Notes: generated by a model not told the origin, from the letters alone. 38,877 nt of DNA from an uncultured Alphaproteobacteria bacterium (GCA_944389345.1 CALXMA010000007.1:1-38877); one strand, 5' to 3'. Counted from the first letter of the stretch, positions 5,954-19,621 are shown. Translations and numbers: made by a program.

Positions 5954-6673
5954 ATGAAAAAATTAGTCTCTTTGGCTGTATTGTTGGGATTGACGGCCCC
6001 CGCGGTCGCGGCGCCCAGTTATTTGACACGCGATGAAAATGGCGGTTATCGTGTAACGTATGATTATACGGACAAGGCTAAAACTGGTTGGTATGTCGGT
6101 GCACGTGCAGATTTGAATTTCTGGACATGGAAAAATAAATATCATGCGTCGGATAATTTTGCGGCAGCCGAAGAATATAACGAAGACGATTATTCGTTTG
6201 AACCTGTCTTTGGTGGCAGTCTGTTTGGCGGATTCCGCTTTGCGTATTATTGGCGCGCGGAATTAGAAGCGGGATATATGGGCTATTTCGAAGACCAAGA
6301 TGCAATGGCGCAGTATGAACTGCAAATCCCATATTTAATGCTGAACGGATACTATGACATGTCAAATGGTGTGTATCTGGGGTTGGGTGTTGGTGTTGCA
6401 ATGCCAATCGAAACGATTGATATGCCGGGATATACCGATGGCAGTAATCGTACCCAATATGGGTTTGCACCAATGGCGGGTGTAATGTTGGGATATTCGT
6501 ATGAATTAGACAATAATTTGGTACTGGATTTACGTTATCGTTTGTCTGGTATGACGGGGTTGCATCATCGTATTGATGATTTGACGTCAGGCGCAGAAAC
6601 ACACTGGTTTGAAAACGAAATTGATTTCGTTTTGGACAATTCAATATCGATTGGTATCAGATATGAATTTTAG
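5954..6673 (+). CDS. Outer-membrane beta-barrel protein
   Basis: The protein is 239 aa. The ATG is chosen because GGAGGAAA lies just upstream and a textbook signal peptide follows (MKKLVSLAVLLGL, cut after AVA or AA near residue 20). The mature part has alternating hydrophobic and polar strands with aromatic belts: WYVGARADLNFWTW, FGGFRFAYYWRAELEAGYMG, YLMLNGYYDMSNGVYLGLGVGVA, MAGVMLGYSYELDNNLVLDLRYRL. It ends in IGIRYEF, the C-terminal Phe expected for BAM-dependent insertion. I infer an eight-stranded or similar porin/adhesin-type barrel, as in alphaproteobacterial surface antigens. The exact role is unknown. Confidence 0.75.
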   Translation: MKKLVSLAVLLGLTAPAVAAPSYLTRDENGGYRVTYDYTDKAKTGWYVGARADLNFWTWKNKYHASDNFAAAEEYNEDDYSFEPVFGGSLFGGFRFAYYWRAELEAGYMGYFEDQDAMAQYELQIPYLMLNGYYDMSNGVYLGLGVGVAMPIETIDMPGYTDGSNRTQYGFAPMAGVMLGYSYELDNNLVLDLRYRLSGMTGLHHRIDDLTSGAETHWFENEIDFVLDNSISIGIRYEF

Positions 6674-6686
6674 TGCATAAAAACTG

Positions 6687-6716
6687 TTGACCCGATTCGC
6701 AGAAATGTGATAGTAT
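6687..6716 (+). promoter_or_regulatory. Candidate promoter of the fibre operon
   Basis: TTGACC, 18 bp, TAGTAT lies just after the barrel gene and about 20 nt ahead of the first fibre gene. The first three fibre genes (gaps of 37 and 41 bp) would share this promoter. Confidence 0.45.
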
Positions 6717-6738: not shown

Positions 6739-9165
6739 ATGAAAAACAATTTGAAAATTTCAAGACTGGCGATAGTTTGTGTCTTGTGTACGGCGGTATC
6801 TGGGGCGTATGGTGCTTCTTCGGTTCGTGCATTGGGGGGCAGTGGTACGTACACCAGTGCGGCCAGTGCGACAACTGCGAATGATACATCAAATACGTCT
6901 GTGCGTGGCGGTTCGTTGCGTGTGACGCCGTCTTCTGGTGTTTCTGGGACGGGTACAACAATTAATGCGGGTACGACAACCAGTGGTCGTGTTGCGACAA
7001 CGCCGCGTTTATCAATTGGTCATTATTTGGGTGGCGGTACATCCGTCAGCGGGGGCAGTTCGTTGCGTCCGCAAAACCCGGGTACGTCGGGCGGTTCTTC
7101 GACCGGTGGTTCTTCGTCTGGTGGAATGGATCCAGGGGTTAGCGGGGCAATAATGGATTCTATTGATGATCTGCAACGTGATGTGGAATCGTTGTATGAT
7201 GCGGATACGAATCTGGCGGACCAGATGAAAACCAAACAGGATTTGTTATATCCGGCGGCCGATGGCTATATTATCATAGACGACAATAATGAAATCTTTG
7301 TTGATGTTGATGCGTTGGCGGAAACTATTGAGAGTGTCGCGGGCGAAGATGGACGCGAAGTTGAATTGGGTTCCGATAATGATAATTTGTTGTGGCGCTA
7401 TGTTGGGGATGGTTCTTGGAATATCTTGATTTCCAAGGATGAAATTACCGGACCCCAGGGGCCACAGGGTGAACCGGGCCAGGCGGCCAATATTGATGAA
7501 ATTATGGCCGAAATGAACGAGGTTATTGATGCCGCGGTCGAAGGTCTGGTTACCACGGAAGAACTGGAAACTAAATTGGCGCCGTATGCGACGAATGTTG
7601 CGGTACAGACCGCAATTGAAACGGCAACCGCTGATTTGGCCAGCAAAACGGATTTGTCCGAGTTGGCGACCAAGGAAGAATTGGCGGGGTATGTGTCTGA
7701 TGCGGACCTGACAAATTATCCGACCACCACACAAATGCAAGATTGGGTTGCACGTGGTCTGGAGGGCAAGGCGGACAAGGCGAAAACTTTGCAGGGGTAT
7801 GGGATTACCGATGCGTACACCAAAGACGAAGTTTATAACAAGGGCGAAGTCGATGGTATGGTTGAAGACTTGGTCGCGGGCGACGTAGAAGGTGCATTGG
7901 TTGGTAAAGAAGATAAATCAAACAAGATTCAGGAAATTACCGCGGAATCTACGGCCGATCAATATCCGTCCGCTGTTGCGGTTCGTACGGCATTAGATGC
8001 CAAGGCGGACAGCACGACGGTTGAACAAATTGAACAGAATGTTACCAATATTCAGCAAGATGTTACCGATGTTCAACAGGATATCACAGATGTTCAGCAA
8101 AATATTACAACCGTTCAAGAAAGTGTAGAAAATGTTACAACGAATGTAACAAATATTACTAATCAGGTTACAGAAATAACAAATCCGGAAACGGGTCTGG
8201 CCAGCAAGGTTGACGATGCGGTTGCCACCGCAGGCGAGGCGTCGACCAAGGTTGATGAAATGCAGGCGACCGTTGGCGAATTGGGTACGGCCGTGGGCGG
8301 ATTGGAAATGGTTGTTGGCGACGAAGAATCTGGATTGGTTGCCGACGTTGCGGGTGCGGTTGAAACCGCCAATGATGCATCGGCCAAGGTTGATGGAATG
8401 CAAACGACGGTGGGTGAATTAGAAACGTCTGTTGGGGCGTTGGAAACAACCGTTGGCGATGAAAATTCCGGCTTGGTCAAAGATGTTGCTGATGCGAATG
8501 CGGCGGCGACGGCGGCCCAAGAAGCCGCCGAAGAGGCGGTCGCCGGATTGGAAGGCAAGCAAGATGCATTGGGTTTTGTACCAGAAGATTCTGCAAATCG
8601 TGCGACGGCCATTACGGCAGAAAACCAGGCATCGGAAACAAACTATCCGTCTGTTGGCGCAATCGTTAATTGGACCAATGAAAAGATTAACGAATTGTCT
8701 GACACTGGTTTACCAGTGAATCCAGACAGTATTGGCAGTGGTGCAATCAATAACGATAAATTGGCGCCCGATGCGGTTACCGAAGACAAGATTGCCGATG
8801 GCGCGGTTGGTACCGATCAAATCAAAGATGATGCCGTAACGGCGGACCAGATTGCGCCCGATGCGGTTGGCAATGAACAGATTGCCGATGGTGCGGTAAC
8901 GACTGACAAGTTAGGTCAAGATGTCCAGACGGCATTGGATGGCAAGGTTGATGAATCTGAATTAGGTGCGTTGGCCAAGAAAAATCAGATTGCTGATGCG
9001 GATGTTGCGGATAACGCGGCCATCGCCAAGAGCAAGTTAGCCGAAGATGTCCAGGTGGCGTTGGATAATGCGGCCAATGCGGTCAGCATGACAGGGGCCA
9101 CACCGAACAGTGTTCTGGGGACAGGCGCCAGCGGTGAAAAAGTTTGGTATGCAATCGCAGAATAA
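6739..9165 (+). CDS. Secreted fibre-like protein 1 (coiled coil, decapeptide repeats)
   Basis: The protein is 808 aa with the ATG after a GGTAGAGAGA site. A signal peptide ends near SGAYGA. A Gly/Ser/Thr-rich stretch (to about residue 135) is followed by coiled coil, then a short collagen-like GPQGPQGEPGQ segment near residue 238. Tail-fibre-like elements follow: YGITDAYTKDEVYNKGEV, ITAESTADQYPSAVAVRTAL, and a heptad-rich V-T-N-I-Q-Q-D-V run. Near residues 673-727 there are five consecutive 10-residue repeats of the type DKIADGAVGT. The C-terminus ends with a Trp module (KVWYAIAE). It resembles phage tail fibres and trimeric adhesins but carries a Sec signal. No enzymatic motif is seen. I infer an extracellular, probably trimeric, fibre. 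Confidence 0.75.
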   Translation: MKNNLKISRLAIVCVLCTAVSGAYGASSVRALGGSGTYTSAASATTANDTSNTSVRGGSLRVTPSSGVSGTGTTINAGTTTSGRVATTPRLSIGHYLGGGTSVSGGSSLRPQNPGTSGGSSTGGSSSGGMDPGVSGAIMDSIDDLQRDVESLYDADTNLADQMKTKQDLLYPAADGYIIIDDNNEIFVDVDALAETIESVAGEDGREVELGSDNDNLLWRYVGDGSWNILISKDEITGPQGPQGEPGQAANIDEIMAEMNEVIDAAVEGLVTTEELETKLAPYATNVAVQTAIETATADLASKTDLSELATKEELAGYVSDADLTNYPTTTQMQDWVARGLEGKADKAKTLQGYGITDAYTKDEVYNKGEVDGMVEDLVAGDVEGALVGKEDKSNKIQEITAESTADQYPSAVAVRTALDAKADSTTVEQIEQNVTNIQQDVTDVQQDITDVQQNITTVQESVENVTTNVTNITNQVTEITNPETGLASKVDDAVATAGEASTKVDEMQATVGELGTAVGGLEMVVGDEESGLVADVAGAVETANDASAKVDGMQTTVGELETSVGALETTVGDENSGLVKDVADANAAATAAQEAAEEAVAGLEGKQDALGFVPEDSANRATAITAENQASETNYPSVGAIVNWTNEKINELSDTGLPVNPDSIGSGAINNDKLAPDAVTEDKIADGAVGTDQIKDDAVTADQIAPDAVGNEQIADGAVTTDKLGQDVQTALDGKVDESELGALAKKNQIADADVADNAAIAKSKLAEDVQVALDNAANAVSMTGATPNSVLGTGASGEKVWYAIAE

Positions 9166-9202
9166 GACGCGGTGAACATTCAGAAAGGAAAGGTAGGAAA
9201 GT

Positions 9203-10816
9203 ATGAAGAAAAGTAATATCGTTTTTTCTGGAATTATGGCAACCATTTTGATGGGGGCCGGGGCCGCGAATGCCGCGACTGTGATTGCCAGCCAGGGCTA
9301 TGTCGACAGAAAAGATGCCGAAATTACAACCAATCTGGAACAAAATTACGCCACCAAAGAATCTGTCAGCGCGTTGGATGATGCGATTAATAACCAAGAA
9401 ACTGGTTTGGCGGGTAAAGTAGACAGTTTGGATGATGCAATCAATAATCCTGATACCGGTTTGGCGAATACGGTTGGTGAATTGGAAACGGTTGTGAATG
9501 ACCCGGACAGTGGTTTGGCCAGCAAGGTTGATGATGCGGTTGCCACCGCGGGCGAGGCATCGACCAAGGTTGATGGAATGCAAACGACGGTGGGTGAATT
9601 AGAAACGTCTGTTGGGGCGTTGGAAACAACCGTTGGTGATGCGGAATCCGGATTGGTCAAAGATGTTGCCGATTTGGGTACAGAAGTAGATGGTTTGGGT
9701 GCAGATATCGGTAATACAGAATCTTTGGCGACAACGTCCAAGGAAGTTGTTGGTGCAATTAACGAAATCGATGCCGATTTGACCAATAAAGAAGATAAAT
9801 TAAACAAGATTCAGGAAATTACCGCGGAATCTACGGCCGATCAATATCCGTCGGCGGTTGCGGTTCGTACGGCTTTGGCGGACAAGGCCGATGCGTCCGA
9901 GGTTGCAAATATCACAAATAATATAACAGAGATTGAACAGACATTCCAAGAAATTACCACACCAGGTACTGGATTGGTTGATGTTGTTGGTGATGCCGAA
10001 GGTGGATTGGTCAAAGACGTTGCCGATTTACAGGGAACCGTTGGTAATGCGGAATCTGGATTGGTTGCCGACGTTGCGGGTGCGGTTGAAACCGCCAATG
10101 ATGCATCGGCCAAGGTTGAAGAATTGGGCAACACGGTTGGAGAACTAGACACGGTTGTTGGTGATGAAACATCTGGATTGGTTAAGGATGTTGCCGATTT
10201 GGGAACCGCGGTTGATACCGCCGAAGGTGAAATTGATGCGTTGCAGGGAACTGTTGCAGGCAAGGCAGATCAGTCTGCACTGACATCTGGGTTGGCATTA
10301 AAAGAAGATACCGCGAACAAGACCGCAAAGATTACCGAAGAAAACGAGAGTTCGGCCACTTTATTCCCGACAATTGGTGCAATTACCGAATGGACGGCCC
10401 AAGAAATTTCTGGGTTGTCTGAATTGCCACCGAATCCAGATTTGATGGAAGATGGGATTTTGCCGGGATCAAAATTGGAAAGTGGTGCCATCACGACCGA
10501 CAAGATTGCCGCGGATGCCGTAACGGCGGACAAGATTGCGGCCGGTGCGGTTGGAACAGAACAAATCGCCGATGGTGCGGTAACAGGGGATAAACTTGGT
10601 GAAGAACTGAGTGCAGAAATCGCTGGCAAGGCAGACGCCGAAAATGTCTATGCCAAAGATGAGACGTACACAAAAACAGAAACAGAAGACAAAATCAAGG
10701 AACTGGGGTTGCCCAGACCAACCGCAGATTGCGTTTCTGATTCAAACCTGTGTGTATTGTCTGTGAACGAAACGGGGAATCTGGCGTGGGTTAGTGTAAC
10801 AAGCCCGTTGGAATAA
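9203..10816 (+). CDS. Secreted fibre-like protein 2
   Basis: The protein is 537 aa with the start after AGAAAGGAAAGG. A signal peptide ends at ANA (residue about 24), and the mature protein starts close to the motif IASQGYVD, shared with proteins 3 and 4. The body has repeats of the type D-x(3)-GL-x-x-V that predict long coiled coil, plus the block ITAESTADQYPSAVAVRTAL shared with protein 1. Near residues 427-456 are decapeptide repeats such as DKIAADAVTA. The C-terminus has P-R-P-x3-C-x6-C-V-L and a late Trp, like protein 3. Long DNA stretches are identical to its neighbours, evidence of recent duplication or gene conversion. It is the second gene of the operon. Confidence 0.75.
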   Translation: MKKSNIVFSGIMATILMGAGAANAATVIASQGYVDRKDAEITTNLEQNYATKESVSALDDAINNQETGLAGKVDSLDDAINNPDTGLANTVGELETVVNDPDSGLASKVDDAVATAGEASTKVDGMQTTVGELETSVGALETTVGDAESGLVKDVADLGTEVDGLGADIGNTESLATTSKEVVGAINEIDADLTNKEDKLNKIQEITAESTADQYPSAVAVRTALADKADASEVANITNNITEIEQTFQEITTPGTGLVDVVGDAEGGLVKDVADLQGTVGNAESGLVADVAGAVETANDASAKVEELGNTVGELDTVVGDETSGLVKDVADLGTAVDTAEGEIDALQGTVAGKADQSALTSGLALKEDTANKTAKITEENESSATLFPTIGAITEWTAQEISGLSELPPNPDLMEDGILPGSKLESGAITTDKIAADAVTADKIAAGAVGTEQIADGAVTGDKLGEELSAEIAGKADAENVYAKDETYTKTETEDKIKELGLPRPTADCVSDSNLCVLSVNETGNLAWVSVTSPLE

Positions 10817-10857
10817 AAAACGATTAACGAAAAAAATACAAGGGAAGGAAAGAGAGA

Positions 10858-12030
10858 ATGAAAAAATTAACAGCAGGTATTTTTGCAACATTATTGGCCG
10901 TTGTTTCGGCGGGTGATGCGAACGCAAAAATCGCGTCCCAGGCCTATGTTGACCAAGAAGTTGGCGCGGTAGAAGCAACCGTGACCGAAGTTCAGGAAAA
11001 TGTTACCAACGTTACACAACAGGTTACACAGGTAACAGAACAAGTTGCAGAAATTACCACACCAGGTACTGGATTGGTTGATGTTGTTGGTGATGCCGAA
11101 GGTGGATTGGTCAAAGATGTTGCCGATTTGGGTACAGAAGTAGAAGGTTTGGGTACAGATATCGGTAATACAGAATCTTTGGCAACAACGTCCAAGGAAG
11201 TTGTTGGTGCAATCAATGAAGTCGAAGGTCGTGTTGATACCGCCGAAGGTGAAATTGATGCGTTGCAGTCAACTGTCGCAAGCAAGGCGAACACCTCAGA
11301 TTTGGGCGCGTTGGCGAAAAAGAATACGGTTGGCACAGCGGACATCGATGCCAAGGCCGTCACAACAGAAAAATTGGCCGATGGAATCGTCACATCTTTG
11401 GGCAAGGCAGACACCGCGTTACAGCAGGGGGCTTTGTCGGATTATCAGACCAAGACCCAGGCAGATGCCGCGTATGCTGTTAAGACATTAGAAGGTCAGG
11501 TTGGTGTCGTTTCTGCGGAAAATATGCATACAACGGCCAGCACGGTTGTAACCGCAATTGCCGAAGTTGCAGATGAAGTGGATGACGCACAACAGGCCGC
11601 GACCACTGCACAGGGTGAAGTGGATGCATTAGAAGCCGTGGTGAACAATGAAACAACAGGTTTGGCCGCCGCGCATACCGCAATTGACGCCGTTGAATCC
11701 AGTGTTAGTGGAATCCAGTCTGATTTGGCACAAATGCCGACAAATACAACAATTGGTACATTAGGCAATTTGCAGACGGAGGAAAAGACTAATCTGGTTG
11801 GTGCAATCAATGAGGTGAATACCAATGCAGATAACGCCGCCACCGCCGCCGCCGCCGCAGACAGCAAGGCAGCCGCCGCACAAAGTGCCGCGGATGCCGC
11901 CCAGGCAACCGCGAATGCGGCCATCCCAAAACCGGCGGGCAGTTGTGCAGAACCCGGTGCAACATGCGTGTTGGTGTATAACGGAACATCGTATTCTTGG
12001 GAAGATATTGCACGTGCAACAGAAGAATAA
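10858..12030 (+). CDS. Secreted fibre-like protein 3
   Basis: The protein is 390 aa with the start after GGAAGGAAAGAGAG. A signal peptide ends at ANA, followed by KIASQAYVD at the mature N-terminus. The middle is coiled coil with V-T-Q-V/N-V-T heptads. A cassette nearly identical at DNA level to protein 2 follows, containing TTPGTGLVDVVGDAEGGL. Toward the end there is an Ala-rich stretch (NAATAAAAADSKAAAAQSAA) typical of a continuous helix. The C-terminal module is P-K-P-x3-C-x6-C-V-L-V-Y-N-G-T-x-Y-S-W. It is the last of the three closely spaced fibre genes; a strong hairpin follows. Confidence 0.75.
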   Translation: MKKLTAGIFATLLAVVSAGDANAKIASQAYVDQEVGAVEATVTEVQENVTNVTQQVTQVTEQVAEITTPGTGLVDVVGDAEGGLVKDVADLGTEVEGLGTDIGNTESLATTSKEVVGAINEVEGRVDTAEGEIDALQSTVASKANTSDLGALAKKNTVGTADIDAKAVTTEKLADGIVTSLGKADTALQQGALSDYQTKTQADAAYAVKTLEGQVGVVSAENMHTTASTVVTAIAEVADEVDDAQQAATTAQGEVDALEAVVNNETTGLAAAHTAIDAVESSVSGIQSDLAQMPTNTTIGTLGNLQTEEKTNLVGAINEVNTNADNAATAAAAADSKAAAAQSAADAAQATANAAIPKPAGSCAEPGATCVLVYNGTSYSWEDIARATEE

Positions 12031-12053
12031 TATATGCGTGTGATACAGGAATT

Positions 12054-12089
12054 CGTGTGGTGTGTGGGATAATCCGCGCACACCACACG
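12054..12089 (+). terminator. Strong hairpin between fibre genes 3 and 4
   Basis: CGTGTGGTGTG at 12054-12064 pairs perfectly with CACACCACACG at 12079-12089, with further partial pairing inside. Only a short ATTTT follows. It may be a weak terminator or an RNA-processing and stability element. Confidence 0.5.
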
Positions 12090-12166
12090 GAACAGAATTT
12101 TGGGACAGAACGACGCAAAGAATTAGACTGGTACACAAAGAACATTTTTAGTTTAGGTAGTGCGAT

Positions 12167-13861
12167 ATGATGAGAGCAAAAGGTATTTTAGCGGTTTCTT
12201 TTTTGGCTATGTTGGCCGTTGGGCCGGCAATGGCCGAGATTGCATCCAAGGGCTATGTCGACGAGAAATTAGAGACCAAGGCCGATGCGTCCGCGCTGAG
12301 TGGATATGCAAAAACCACTGAATTGAATGCGGTCAGTGGACGTGTGACAACGGCACAAGATACCGCAGATGCCGCGAAAGAGGCCGCAGAGAATGCCCAG
12401 ACGACCGCAAATACTAAGGTTACCGCAAATGCCGGAATAACCGGGGCAACGCATACCAAAATTACCTATGATTCCAAGGGGTTGGTGACCGCGGGGACGG
12501 ATTTGACCGCGAATGATATCCCAACGATTCCATCGTCCAAGGTTTCGGGATTGGGGTCTTTGGCAACAAAAAGTTCTGTGGGTACAAACGATATCGCAAA
12601 TGGCGCCGTGACATCGGCCAAGTTGGGCGAAGATGTCCAGGCCGCATTAGAACAGGCGGGCAGTGCCGTTCAGCCGGGCAATATGCCGGTTGCCACAGGC
12701 AGTGCCGTTGGTGGTGTTAAGTCGGGTGCTGATATTACCGTTGCCGCAGATGGTGCCGTTACCGTAAACAGTGCGACAAATGCCGATCATGCGACCAGTG
12801 CCGACAGCGCAACAAACGCAACAAATGCGACAAACGCTACAAACGCTGACCATGCGGATACCGCTGATACTGCGACAAATGCGACAAACGCAACGAATGC
12901 TACGAACGCCACAAACGCGACCAAGGCGACCCAGGACGCGGATGGCAATGTTATTACGGATACGTATGCAACCAAAACGGAATTAGGTGCCAAGGCGAAC
13001 ACCGCAGATTTGGCCGAAGTTGCGACAACGGGGTCTTATGATGATTTGGCAAATAAACCAACGATTCCGACCGTTAATAATGCAACGTTGACAATTCAGC
13101 GCAATGGAACCCAGGTTGACACGTTTACCGCAAATGCGTCTGCGAATAAGACAATTAATATAACTGTGCCGACCAAGACCAGTGAATTGTCTAATGACAG
13201 TGGTTTTGCAACAACAACCCAGGTGAATGCACGTGTTGCCACCGCCCAGGGATCTGGTAATGCGAACAAGGCCGTCGTTACTAATGCCAGTGGTAATATC
13301 ACAACGGGTACTATTGCGTCGGGGATGATTGCAGATGGTGCCGTGACGTCGGCGAAAATTGCAGATGGCACGATTACGGCAAATGATATCGCAAACGGTA
13401 CTATTACGTCCGGAAAATTGGCCACGGCGGTTCAGTCTGCGTTGACCAGTGCCGGGACCGCGGTACAGCCGGATGATTTGGCCGAAGTTGCAACAACGGG
13501 GTCTTATAACGATTTGGCCGACAAGCCGACAATTCCGAAACAGATTACCGTGGATTCTGCATTAAGTTCGACCAGTACGAACCCGGTTCAGAACAAGGTT
13601 ATTAATACTGCGTTGGCGGGCAAGTTGTCCACCACGGGAACCGCCGCGCGTGCGACCGCCGATGCGTCGGGTAATAATATCGTCAATACTTATGCGACCA
13701 AGTCCCAGATAACGGCGTTGGACAGTTCGTCCACCGGAACAGGGGCCGTGGTTACGGCGGTATCACAGACCGATGGTAAGGTGTCTGTGACCAAGGGGAA
13801 TGTAAAGATTCCTGTGGGTGGTGAAAATGCCACGTCGTATGCAACGATATGGGTTCAATAG
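12167..13861 (+). CDS. Secreted fibre-like protein 4 (tail-fibre type)
   Basis: The protein is 564 aa; a second ATG at 12170 is equally possible. A signal peptide ends at AMA, followed by EIASKGYVDEK, matching the mature N-termini of proteins 2 and 3. Elements familiar from phage tail fibres follow: ITGATHTKITYDSKGLVTAG, NDIPTIPSSKVSG, a run of Asn-Ala-Thr tripeptides, two copies of LAEVATTGSYxDLAxKPTIP, PTKTSELSNDSGF, and SALSSTSTNPVQNKVIN. Decapeptide repeats such as KIADGTITAN occur in the middle. It ends YATIWVQ, again with a late Trp. It lies 136 bp from gene 3 behind a hairpin, so it may be transcribed separately. No chaperone, tail or capsid genes are nearby. Confidence 0.75.
   Translation: MMRAKGILAVSFLAMLAVGPAMAEIASKGYVDEKLETKADASALSGYAKTTELNAVSGRVTTAQDTADAAKEAAENAQTTANTKVTANAGITGATHTKITYDSKGLVTAGTDLTANDIPTIPSSKVSGLGSLATKSSVGTNDIANGAVTSAKLGEDVQAALEQAGSAVQPGNMPVATGSAVGGVKSGADITVAADGAVTVNSATNADHATSADSATNATNATNATNADHADTADTATNATNATNATNATNATKATQDADGNVITDTYATKTELGAKANTADLAEVATTGSYDDLANKPTIPTVNNATLTIQRNGTQVDTFTANASANKTINITVPTKTSELSNDSGFATTTQVNARVATAQGSGNANKAVVTNASGNITTGTIASGMIADGAVTSAKIADGTITANDIANGTITSGKLATAVQSALTSAGTAVQPDDLAEVATTGSYNDLADKPTIPKQITVDSALSSTSTNPVQNKVINTALAGKLSTTGTAARATADASGNNIVNTYATKSQITALDSSSTGTGAVVTAVSQTDGKVSVTKGNVKIPVGGENATSYATIWVQ
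12771..12935 (+). repeat. 9-bp period Asn-Ala-Thr tandem repeat inside fibre gene 4
   Basis: DNA units like AACGCAACA repeat with small variations and encode (Asn-Ala-Thr)n, broken once by Asp-His-Ala-Asp. The 9-bp period keeps the frame whatever the copy number. Confidence 0.7.
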
Positions 13862-14335
13862 GTTGTAGGTTTTACAATTTATTGGCTTTTCAAGGAGAGA
13901 GAAGCACCGCGTCCCCGCCGTTATGGCGGGGCGATTCTTTTTTGTGAAAAATCTGGTTCGGGATTGCTGTGGTGGATGTCGTGTAATGGTGGAATAAATA
14001 CCCGAATAAGGCCGGTTGATTGCGGTTTGTAATTTGTTTGGGGTCGTTTGTGTTTGGGGGCGCGGTGGCGTGGGTGATAATTTCAAAAAATTTATCTGGG
14101 GCGTAATGTTGTTGTGTGTGGCAGATTTTAGTAGTGGCGAAATGCAGTGATTAAAGGTGCGGGGCAGATTCCCTTTTATCTTGTAGTTTATCACCCGGTT
14201 TCACTTTGATTTTTTCAGAATGTTGTTTATGTAATTTGTAATATATTGTGGGTTGGGTAAGCGTGTCAACGGGGTGGCCCATATTTTTATGGGGTGCCAT
14301 GCATCGTGTGTGTTATTAATGCGGGTGCATCAAGA
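13862..14335. other. Intergenic stretch without a recognised gene
   Basis: It holds the terminator of fibre gene 4 and then about 390 bp of G/T-rich sequence. Open frames on the minus strand overlap the fibre gene end and look like compositional shadows. A 9-bp inverted repeat (GGGTGATAA at 14072, TTATCACCC at 14188) is spaced too widely to be convincing. I see no tRNA, known RNA or promoter I would stand behind. Confidence 0.5.
13913..13942 (+). terminator. Intrinsic terminator of fibre gene 4
   Basis: CCCCGCC and GGCGGGG form a 7-bp stem with loop GTTAT, followed by TTCTTTTTT. Confidence 0.8.
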
Positions 14336-17748: not shown

Positions 17749-18171
17749 ATGTTGAAAAGCGTTATACATTATTTGATGAAAACACCGTGGAAAGCGATTT
17801 CTGCGGATATAGAAGAATATCAATGGTTGAATAAGCAATGTTCTGTGGCGTACAGAAGATTTGAATGCGCAGAATCTGCACTGGTCAAAAGGGTTCATTT
17901 TGTCGATAAGGCTAAGGATTTAGACAAGGTGTTGGGATGTGTTAAACGGACGGTTGTTTACCGGGTCGATCCCACAACCAGCGAAATGGTGCCGTATATG
18001 TATTCTATGGCATGTGATAATTTCGATAAACATTTTGGGTGTCCTGTTAATGACTGTCCGTTCTTTGGACCCAACAAGGATTATGTTGATGCAAAAAATG
18101 AATACGAGAGGTTAAACAGGGAAAGAAAAATCTTTTGGAGAAATCGTATCACAAAAATAAGACAAAGGTAG
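17749..18171 (+). CDS. Uncharacterised protein with C-x8-C-x4-C motif (copy 1)
   Basis: The protein is 140 aa. I do not recognise the family. It is a paralogue of the next gene: both begin with V-I-x-Y-x-x-K-T-P-x-K-x-I-x-x-D-x-E-E-Y and both carry a C-x8-C-x4-C motif (here C-D-N-F-D-K-H-F-G-C-P-V-N-D-C) about 45 residues before the end. Both then have a basic, Tyr- and Arg-rich tail. There is no signal peptide or membrane segment, so it is probably cytoplasmic. An additional Cys near residue 63 could complete a metal site. It starts 46 bp after lepA and is followed by copy 2 after 7 bp, so the pair is co-transcribed. Confidence 0.6.
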   Translation: MLKSVIHYLMKTPWKAISADIEEYQWLNKQCSVAYRRFECAESALVKRVHFVDKAKDLDKVLGCVKRTVVYRVDPTTSEMVPYMYSMACDNFDKHFGCPVNDCPFFGPNKDYVDAKNEYERLNRERKIFWRNRITKIRQR

Positions 18172-18178
18172 TGTTGTT

Positions 18179-18589
18179 ATGAATGTTGGTGTAATCAGGT
18201 ATGTTATTAAAACACCTTTGAAGACGATTAAGAACGATGTCGAAGAATATGTCGTTTTGTCGCGCATATACAGGAATTTACGGCGCATATATCGTCAAAC
18301 GCGTCGACAGGTTATTGTAGATGTAGAAGAACCAGAACAAATAGAACGCAATGTGGTACATGCCAGTATGGGGTGTGATTTGCGCTGTCCGATTTATGGT
18401 TTTGGTGATCCTGTGCCACAGTATTATGAAACGTCGTGCGCATATTTTCACAGAAATCGACCATGTGGAAATGTCGCATGTGCGCGTCGCAGTGTTAATA
18501 ATCAGTACTTTGTCGTGCGTCGGCAATATCTGAATGCGAAAATAATTCGGGATAATTATTGGTCTGATGTTTTCCAGCGTCAAGGCTAA
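18179..18589 (+). CDS. Uncharacterised protein with C-x8-C-x4-C motif (copy 2)
   Basis: The protein is 136 aa and is paralogous to the preceding gene. It shares the N-terminal motif (VIRYVIKTPLKTIKNDVEEY) and the Cys motif C-A-Y-F-H-R-N-R-P-C-G-N-V-A-C. It has two further Cys in M-G-C-D-L-R-C. Between these parts it is rich in Arg and Tyr (RNLRRIYRQTRRQ), suggesting nucleic-acid contact, which is inference only. It sits 7 bp after copy 1 and 27 bp before the recombinase-like gene. The three may form one transcript. Confidence 0.6.
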   Translation: MNVGVIRYVIKTPLKTIKNDVEEYVVLSRIYRNLRRIYRQTRRQVIVDVEEPEQIERNVVHASMGCDLRCPIYGFGDPVPQYYETSCAYFHRNRPCGNVACARRSVNNQYFVVRRQYLNAKIIRDNYWSDVFQRQG

Positions 18590-18616: not shown

Positions 18617-19621
18617 ATGGCGCATCAGTTCTTTTTTAATCCGTTCATTTTGGATAATCTGCCGGCGCCGGCAACCGGGTTCGATGTTGTCCAGGATTTG
18701 TCCGAACCACGGTTGCGAATGTATATCACCAGTCGGGGAATAAAAACGTTCTTTGTGCGCAAACGTGTGCATGGTCGGGACAAGCGGATAATTATTGGAA
18801 ACTATCCGGCCATTGATATCGAAACCGCACGCGGGGCGGTGCCAGAAATACTGGCACAGGCAATGCAAAAGCCAAAGGTTCATCGTAAAAAAATTACGTT
18901 GGGAAAGTTCTTGGATATTTACATGGCGAATCGGATTCGCAGAAACAGTTATTCGCGCTATAAACTGGAACGCGCAATCGGTCGGCATTTGAAGCCTTTG
19001 ATGGATAAAAATATATCTGACATAACATCAAACGATGTCGCAGATGTTATTAAAAATATATCTGGACGCGCAATCGCCGGGCGTATGCAAGAATTATTGC
19101 AAAGCGTGTTTAAGTATGCCATCGATACGGGATATTTGCGGGAAAATCCCGTGCTGGCCGTGCCCAAGGTACAACAAAATCGTCGTGTGCGTCCACTGAA
19201 CAAATCGGGATTTCATCGGTTGATAGATGCGATTAATCGCGAAGAATCGCCGAACCTGCGGGCCGCGTTTTTAATGTTGGTGTATGGGTTTGCGCCAAAG
19301 TCCCAGGTGTTTTCTATGCAATGGCGCGATTTGGATTTCAATCATTATACATGGTGCGACAGACCGTTATCTGATATGGCGGTTGTGTTATTACAAGATT
19401 TGCCCCAAGATTCACGTTGGGTATTCCCGGGACGGGGGCGGGGGCATCTGACCGATCCGCGGTTGGCGTGGCGACGGGTTGTGCGCGATGCGGGTATACC
19501 AGATTTGACCATGGATGATGTTCATAAATTCTTGATGCGACAGTTGGTGTGGGCGTCTGACCGTGAAGATTTCCGCGAAAATATGAACGTGTTGCTGGAA
19601 AATGTTATGGACAGAACATAA
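18617..19621 (+). CDS. Tyrosine-recombinase-like protein lacking catalytic residues
   Basis: The protein is 334 aa with a GGGGG-containing ribosome-binding site. The layout follows phage-type integrases: an arm-binding-like N-terminus (RMYITSRGIKTFFVRKRV, GNYPAIDIETARGAVPEI), a SAM-like core-binding domain (about 92-185, TLGKFLDIYMANRIRRNSYS) and a catalytic-fold region with LTDPRLAWRRVVRDAGIPDL. The active site is missing. The first Arg position reads F-A-P-K (about 225-228), the H-x-x-R box reads H-K-F-L (303-306), the beta-hairpin with the catalytic Lys is shortened, and no Tyr occurs after residue 244. The gene is otherwise intact, so it may be a domesticated DNA-binding protein. No attachment site is seen beside it. 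Confidence 0.7.
   Translation: MAHQFFFNPFILDNLPAPATGFDVVQDLSEPRLRMYITSRGIKTFFVRKRVHGRDKRIIIGNYPAIDIETARGAVPEILAQAMQKPKVHRKKITLGKFLDIYMANRIRRNSYSRYKLERAIGRHLKPLMDKNISDITSNDVADVIKNISGRAIAGRMQELLQSVFKYAIDTGYLRENPVLAVPKVQQNRRVRPLNKSGFHRLIDAINREESPNLRAAFLMLVYGFAPKSQVFSMQWRDLDFNHYTWCDRPLSDMAVVLLQDLPQDSRWVFPGRGRGHLTDPRLAWRRVVRDAGIPDLTMDDVHKFLMRQLVWASDREDFRENMNVLLENVMDRT

Follow-up and report, generated by a model that had tools for sequence, protein, structure and literature searches.

Four exported, phage-fibre-like proteins of a gut alphaproteobacterium: a chromosomal operon for probably host-owned adhesive surface fibres

Four exported fibre-like proteins in one gene cluster

We identified, in a 38,877-nt stretch of DNA from an uncultured Alphaproteobacteria bacterium (GCA_944389345.1 CALXMA010000007.1:1-38877; hereafter the window), four neighbouring genes (F1 to F4, positions 6739-13861) whose products we read, with a probability of about 0.6, as host-owned, probably trimeric, modular adhesive surface fibres encoded in a chromosomal operon. 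Since the middles of these proteins change fast and carry phage tail modules, they point to separate adhesive fibres rather than to a uniform layer; the original prediction, made from the sequence alone, had left open both a fibre and a surface layer.

All four genes lie at the predicted place as uninterrupted open frames on the plus strand, and the gaps between them measure 37 nt (F1/F2), 41 nt (F2/F3), and 136 nt (F3/F4). F1 (6739-9165; 808 amino acids [aa]) has the start SSVRxLGGxGTY directly after its signal, a short collagen-like stretch (7450-7479), a coiled coil (8038-8118), tail-fibre repeats (8734-8916), and the C-terminal cap VLG..G..VWYxI (9106-9156). F2 (9203-10816; 537 aa) combines a signal and the start IASQGYVD (9281-9307) with a fibritin-like coiled coil and the cap PxP..C....CVL....W (10706-10801); F3 (10858-12030; 390 aa) has a signal, the start IASQAYVD (10927-10953), segmented helices, and a C-terminal beta-hairpin cap (11920-12015); and F4 (12167-13861; 564 aa) has a signal, the start IASKGYVD (12236-12262), an (ATN)n run (12878-12934), a module shared with phages (13010-13207), and the C-terminal motif IPVG....A.IWV[EQ] (13805-13858).

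The Sec export predicted for the four products is borne out by inspection of their N-termini, each of which is a basic, hydrophobic signal with an A-X-A-type end (predicted cleavage contexts: AYG/AS in F1, ANA/AT in F2, ANA/KI in F3, and AMA/EI in F4). Coiled coil and tail-fibre elements had also been claimed and are present; the three motifs quoted for the cluster as a whole do exist, but every one of them is in F4 (aa 99-110, 472-480 [NPVQNKVIN], and 339-347 [SELSNDSGF]), and the claimed collagen-like elements come down to ten residues, GPQGPQGEPG, in F1 only (aa 238-247).

A promoter-like site of F1 (6687-6716, plus strand; TTGACC-18-TAGTAT, with a conserved CGATTCG inside the spacer) and a strong terminator-like hairpin after F4 (13913-13941, plus strand; an 8-pair stem, 7 of the pairs being G-C, and a T-rich tail) suggest that F1 to F4 are probably one transcription unit.

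Tail-fibre modules and the search for phage genes

In the profile scan, the tail fiber family phrog_892 matches F1 (E = 3.7e-18), F2 (7.7e-11), and F4 (4.3e-7), and F3 matches a second tail fiber family, phrog_25848 (E = 1.1e-8). F2 also matches fibritin, both as Pfam Fibritin_C (E = 8.9e-9; 35.8 bits, cut-off 21) and as phrog_1056 (E = 5.9e-9), a profile that matches F1 as well, and it resembles wac of Acinetobacter phages at 29-36% identity. The tail-fibre-type content of the four proteins is well beyond chance.

Searched with F4, viral contigs yielded 78 loci; among the matches listed, all are confined to aa 42-549, and none extends into the signal and start motif at one end or into the 15 final residues at the other. 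The strongest example comes from a 1626-aa rumen phage protein on a viral contig (L113), which has a 74-aa module 74% identical to that of F4, as well as additional copies of it, and at another viral locus (L112) the gene behind the F4-matching gene belongs to tail-fiber families. F4 had no match in phage and plasmid records. Because the viral matches stay inside the middle of F4, the middle modules are common to the fibres and to phage tail-type proteins, and the ends are the bacterium's own; the direction of module exchange with phages is inferred.

The tail-fibre and fibritin matches, together with the modules common to rumen viral contigs, could mean that the cluster is what remains of a phage tail module, or a domesticated one, or else a tailocin-like particle, its fibres now maintained by the host; we consider this very improbable. 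As predicted, the scanned genes of the window include none for capsid, baseplate, lysis, or chaperone proteins and are ordinary ones (tolB, plsC, ftsE, pal, VTT, rbfA, lepA, fabF, translation factors, and ribosomal proteins), and no neighbouring tail, baseplate, capsid, or lysis gene appears in the window scan or in the gene maps of relatives. The proteins have Sec signals, the F4 start and end motifs are unmatched in viral contigs among the matches listed, and the cluster holds a constant slot, among core genes only, in dozens of species (see below).

A tyrosine-recombinase-like gene (Phage_int_M; 18617-19621) is found, at 65-77% identity, between lepA and fabF in almost every relative; it belongs to the core genes of the group and does not indicate a prophage. 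Between lepA and this gene (17749-18589) there are small, fast-evolving paralogues of ~140 aa (22-29% identity), whose number varies between species.

F1 to F4 are exported, coiled-coil, and modular, as are trimeric autotransporter adhesins (type Vc), and the source genome (G000) also has classical autotransporters, away from the fibre cluster (three autotransporter beta-domains, PF03797, over cut-off on contigs C2 and C3, L232-L234). That the four proteins themselves are autotransporters of either kind is nevertheless the least probable of the readings weighed here: Pfam finds no YadA anchor and no autotransporter domain in any of them, the YadA anchor is absent genome-wide, and their conserved C-terminal caps (20-45 aa, specific to each fibre type) are too short for a barrel. 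The claim that they are not standard trimeric autotransporters stands, and both the prophage and the YadA-type readings fail on the tested features (no virion genes, a fixed slot, and no YadA anchor).

A fixed chromosomal slot in relatives

Because the beta-barrel protein encoded upstream of F1 matched nothing when used as a query for named relatives, we took rbfA as the anchor and retrieved 80 named loci. The rbfA relatives of G000 (894 kb, 98.8% complete) carry the labels Candidatus Enterousia or uncultured gut Alphaproteobacteria, and G000 is a member of the Candidatus Enterousia group, order Rs-D84. Enterousia is assigned to this order and has reduced genomes (~0.9 Mb); flagella are absent and transport is very restricted, the standard transporters for sugars, amino acids, and peptides being missing from these <1 Mb genomes, and life as an obligate symbiont or parasite has been proposed for it (PMC12306168). 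We count this proposed partner-dependent life in favour of adhesive surface fibres.

Slot and promoter-footprint counts were made by hand, the former from gene maps. Among the 48 loci with a full upstream flank, 45 are informative (L063, L096, and L099 were left out, as a rearrangement or a contig end prevents a judgement), and in 40 of these the fibre cluster lies between ftsEX/pal and rbfA/lepA, typically in the order barrel, F1, F2, F3, F4, with five or more fibre genes at some loci. The cluster is not at this slot in L085, L088, L101, L109, and L111; the last two, which are outgroup loci, are empty sites, a VTT-sized gene and rbfA coming right after ftsE. The survey of relatives suggested with the original prediction also bears out the association with the barrel gene: each of the 31 loci that have barrel and lepA on one contig has a fibre gene after the barrel. 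When the order was surveyed with the F3 alignment, matches came from 93 of 142 genomes and from 11 of 20 genera; a single exception aside, all belong to the window's own family. The back-translated start motif occurs three times in G000, each time within the cluster.

Genes of type 1 (F1) are found in 26 loci, the window included, and the sequence TTGAC[CG]CGATTCG or a near form stands ~50 nt before the F1 start in 19 of 24 loci. We considered this motif as the mark of a wider regulon and rejected it: the sole other exact copy lies inside a coding gene, and near copies are not promoter-like. The constant slot and order, the core genes on both sides, the Sec-type signals, the conserved promoter, and the two cluster-free outgroup loci together strongly support a cluster that is host-owned, as had been proposed, rather than a phage module or prophage.

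Two loci have unusual arrangements. At L062 (3465-7871), a single frame of 1468 aa has an F1-type start and an F2-type end, as though two genes had fused. At L060 (4421-9162; WSMU01000003.1), the cluster end and the VTT gene are tandemly duplicated with identical ends, and rbfA is apparently fused to a fibre end; this may be a real duplication or an assembly error.

Conserved ends and free middles

The start IAS[KQ]xYVD follows the signal directly in F2 to F4, and a relaxed version of it occurs in 30 of 33 complete genes of F2 type, 34 of 35 of F3 type, and 29 of 42 of F4 type; the F1 type has SSVRxLGGxGTY instead. In the fibre alignments, conservation falls away beyond ~aa 40: invariant or nearly invariant columns of F3 lie at aa 1-32 and 356-386 only, and invariant columns of F4 only at aa 548-561. 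F4-type proteins range from 100 aa to >700 aa, the shortest (L026, 8433-8735; 100 aa) being hardly more than both ends. Between the window and a relative (G022), lepA is 90% identical, pal 82%, ftsE 81%, and the barrel 60%, as against 28-53% over partial alignments for the fibres, which evolve far faster than the neighbouring genes.

Comparison by hhalign shows the caps at the C-termini of F2 and F3 to be homologous (E = 3.7e-12), with a weak relationship between F1 and F2. In the AlphaFold model of F3 (mean predicted local distance difference test [pLDDT] 65, predicted template modelling score 0.32), helices are followed by a terminal hairpin (370-374/379-383), which is the best-predicted part (pLDDT ~80); the F4 model has a small predicted beta region near the C-terminus (~aa 520-560). 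From 16 phage units we built a foldon model, which matches F1 at the C-terminus in two relatives (E = 0.0023 and 0.048); a number of its weaker matches among real proteins likewise lie 15-26 residues from a C-terminus, so that foldon descent is suggested. Foldseek gave no significant match with the F3 and F4 models, and a sequence search of the PDB gave no helpful match for F4, F2, or the F3 cap, and only weak matches for F1 (9eg4_H 'orf16', E = 0.0012, in the repeat region, and reovirus sigma-1, 0.038, in the coiled coil).

Diversification of the middles

Between F1 and F2, or F2 and F3, the window has common stretches of DNA of 81-140 nt at 87-99% identity; those among F1, F2, and F3 that we count in favour of modular fibres are 91-99% identical. 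Recent segment sharing of this kind inside the cluster occurs in 6 of 30 loci, and in none for the lepA control; since it is seen in so few loci, we regard the sharing as strong in the window, yet not as evidence for a general process. A diversity-generating retroelement was ruled out as a motor in G000, as a genome search found no reverse transcriptase (PF00078).

In two relatives, G014 (L208-L218) and G126 (L222-L227), the F3 type is spread as scattered single genes between housekeeping genes, at about thirty and about a dozen sites, respectively, by hand grouping of matches. These genes have near-identical starts and C-terminal caps with mosaic middles, and several G014 and G126 contigs stop inside their shared 5' part. 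We tentatively suggest, though we would not bet on it, that a chassis of fixed ends, with middles swapped from paralogues and from phage tail fibres of the same gut, is a modular recognition system of the whole family of these reduced-genome, probably partner-dependent bacteria that gives each species its own partner-binding repertoire, the dispersed F3 genes being such repertoires in these two relatives.

Surface fibre or periplasmic scaffold

The gene directly upstream of F1 (5954-6673, plus strand; 239 aa) encodes, as predicted, an outer-membrane beta-barrel protein (OMP_b-brl, PF13505; 30.7 bits against a cut-off of 28.7) that is 48-59% identical in relatives. The fibres may leave the cell through this co-conserved barrel, the beta-barrel assembly machinery (BAM), or a single secretin, and the fibre base may dock to the barrel.

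A solitary lipoprotein-type secretin (PF00263; L237:688-2346, contig C9 of G000; also L238-L266), together with a 302-aa partner gene, is retained in 55 of 59 genomes of the genus, where it scores above the family cut-off. The slot behind it varies, and in L238, L246, and L248 holds a fibre gene starting with IASVQYVQ or similar. It is possible that this secretin is the outer-membrane exit for the fibres.

The main rival to adhesive surface fibres is a periplasmic scaffold, in which the coiled coils would bridge barrel, Pal, and peptidoglycan as a spacer of the envelope. The coiled coils are indeed long, the neighbours are envelope genes (pal, tolB, ftsEX, and the barrel), and no outer-membrane exit is known to go with the Sec signals. 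Several-fold variation in length, as in the F4 types (~100 to >700 aa), would however be unexpected in a spacer whose width is fixed, and the quick diversification of the middles and the modules that they have in common with phage receptor-binding fibres also speak against it; we think this rival unlikely, if the most serious of those considered.

For adhesive surface fibres we propose the following course. Sec would export each chain and signal peptidase I would cut it, leaving a mature N-terminus of IAS[KQ]xYVD (F2 to F4) or SSVRxLGG (F1) that is probably the base or anchor. Three chains would then zip together through the segmented coiled coil, kept in register, as in T4 fibritin, by the short beta cap at the C-terminus, and the fibre would be displayed on the outer surface, close to the barrel protein that is conserved with it. 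Ligands on partner microbes or on the animal host would be recognised by the variable middle, and new specificities could arise as internal modules are swapped among the genes of the operon and with phage tail-fibre genes, both ends staying constant.

Several points weigh against this proposal. Surface location, trimerisation, and binding are all inferred, and no known export machine for such fibres is tied to F1 to F4. The models are low in overall confidence (pLDDT 65 for F3 and 59 for F4), and the foldon resemblance, by the foldon model and hhalign, is significant for the F1 of relatives only and not for the window proteins. In addition, the conserved C-terminal ends depart from the usual phage plan, and from that of the mosaic adhesive trimer (MAT) fibres described below, in which the tip is the variable end.

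If the proposal is true, the cluster would clearly show that cells other than predatory bacteria use phage tail-fibre modules for surface proteins of their own, and its chassis of fixed ends and free middle could explain how such proteins diversify. How transporter-poor bacteria of <1 Mb find and hold a partner is a question for which the fibre operon offers a concrete, testable candidate contact organ.

Comparison with known systems

In a limited literature search we found no publication on these fibre proteins; the nearest described system is that of the MAT fibres of Bdellovibrio bacteriovorus (PMC10769870). Like these, F1 to F4 are chromosomal, carry Sec signals (by inspection), and are exported, with several paralogues per genome, a phage-tail-like body, modular exchange, and a constant end near the cell. 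This shared logic of an exported fibre with one constant end, a variable part, and phage-like modules would allow true membership in the MAT family, which we judge to be a slim chance. MATs have a beta-rich domain of ~130 aa directly after the signal (PMC10769870), by which their description sets them apart; compared by description only, F1 to F4 lack it and have a short motif and then helix in its place (the F3 model is helical after the start motif, at low confidence), and no solved chain matched F4 or F2 meaningfully. F1 to F4 further differ in having both ends conserved and the middle variable, whereas MATs vary at the C-terminal tip, and in forming one operon in a fixed slot.

With fibritin of the T4 type (wac, the neck whisker), the proteins share a segmented coiled coil (VGD..xGLVKDVxDL) and a short terminal beta-hairpin cap, and the helix-plus-hairpin model of F3 has the layout of fibritin plus foldon; unlike fibritin, they are exported by the cell and are not part of a virion. 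With phage tail fibres (phrog_892 and relatives) they share internal modules (LATVATTGSYxDLxNKPTIP...TSELxNDSGF, and GAVTxDKIADGAV repeats), but they differ in their Sec signal, their host start and end motifs, and the lack of tail genes nearby. Trimeric autotransporters of the YadA family resemble them in principle as exported, coiled-coil, modular adhesive fibres; F1 to F4, however, are without a C-terminal barrel, in a genome without a YadA anchor.

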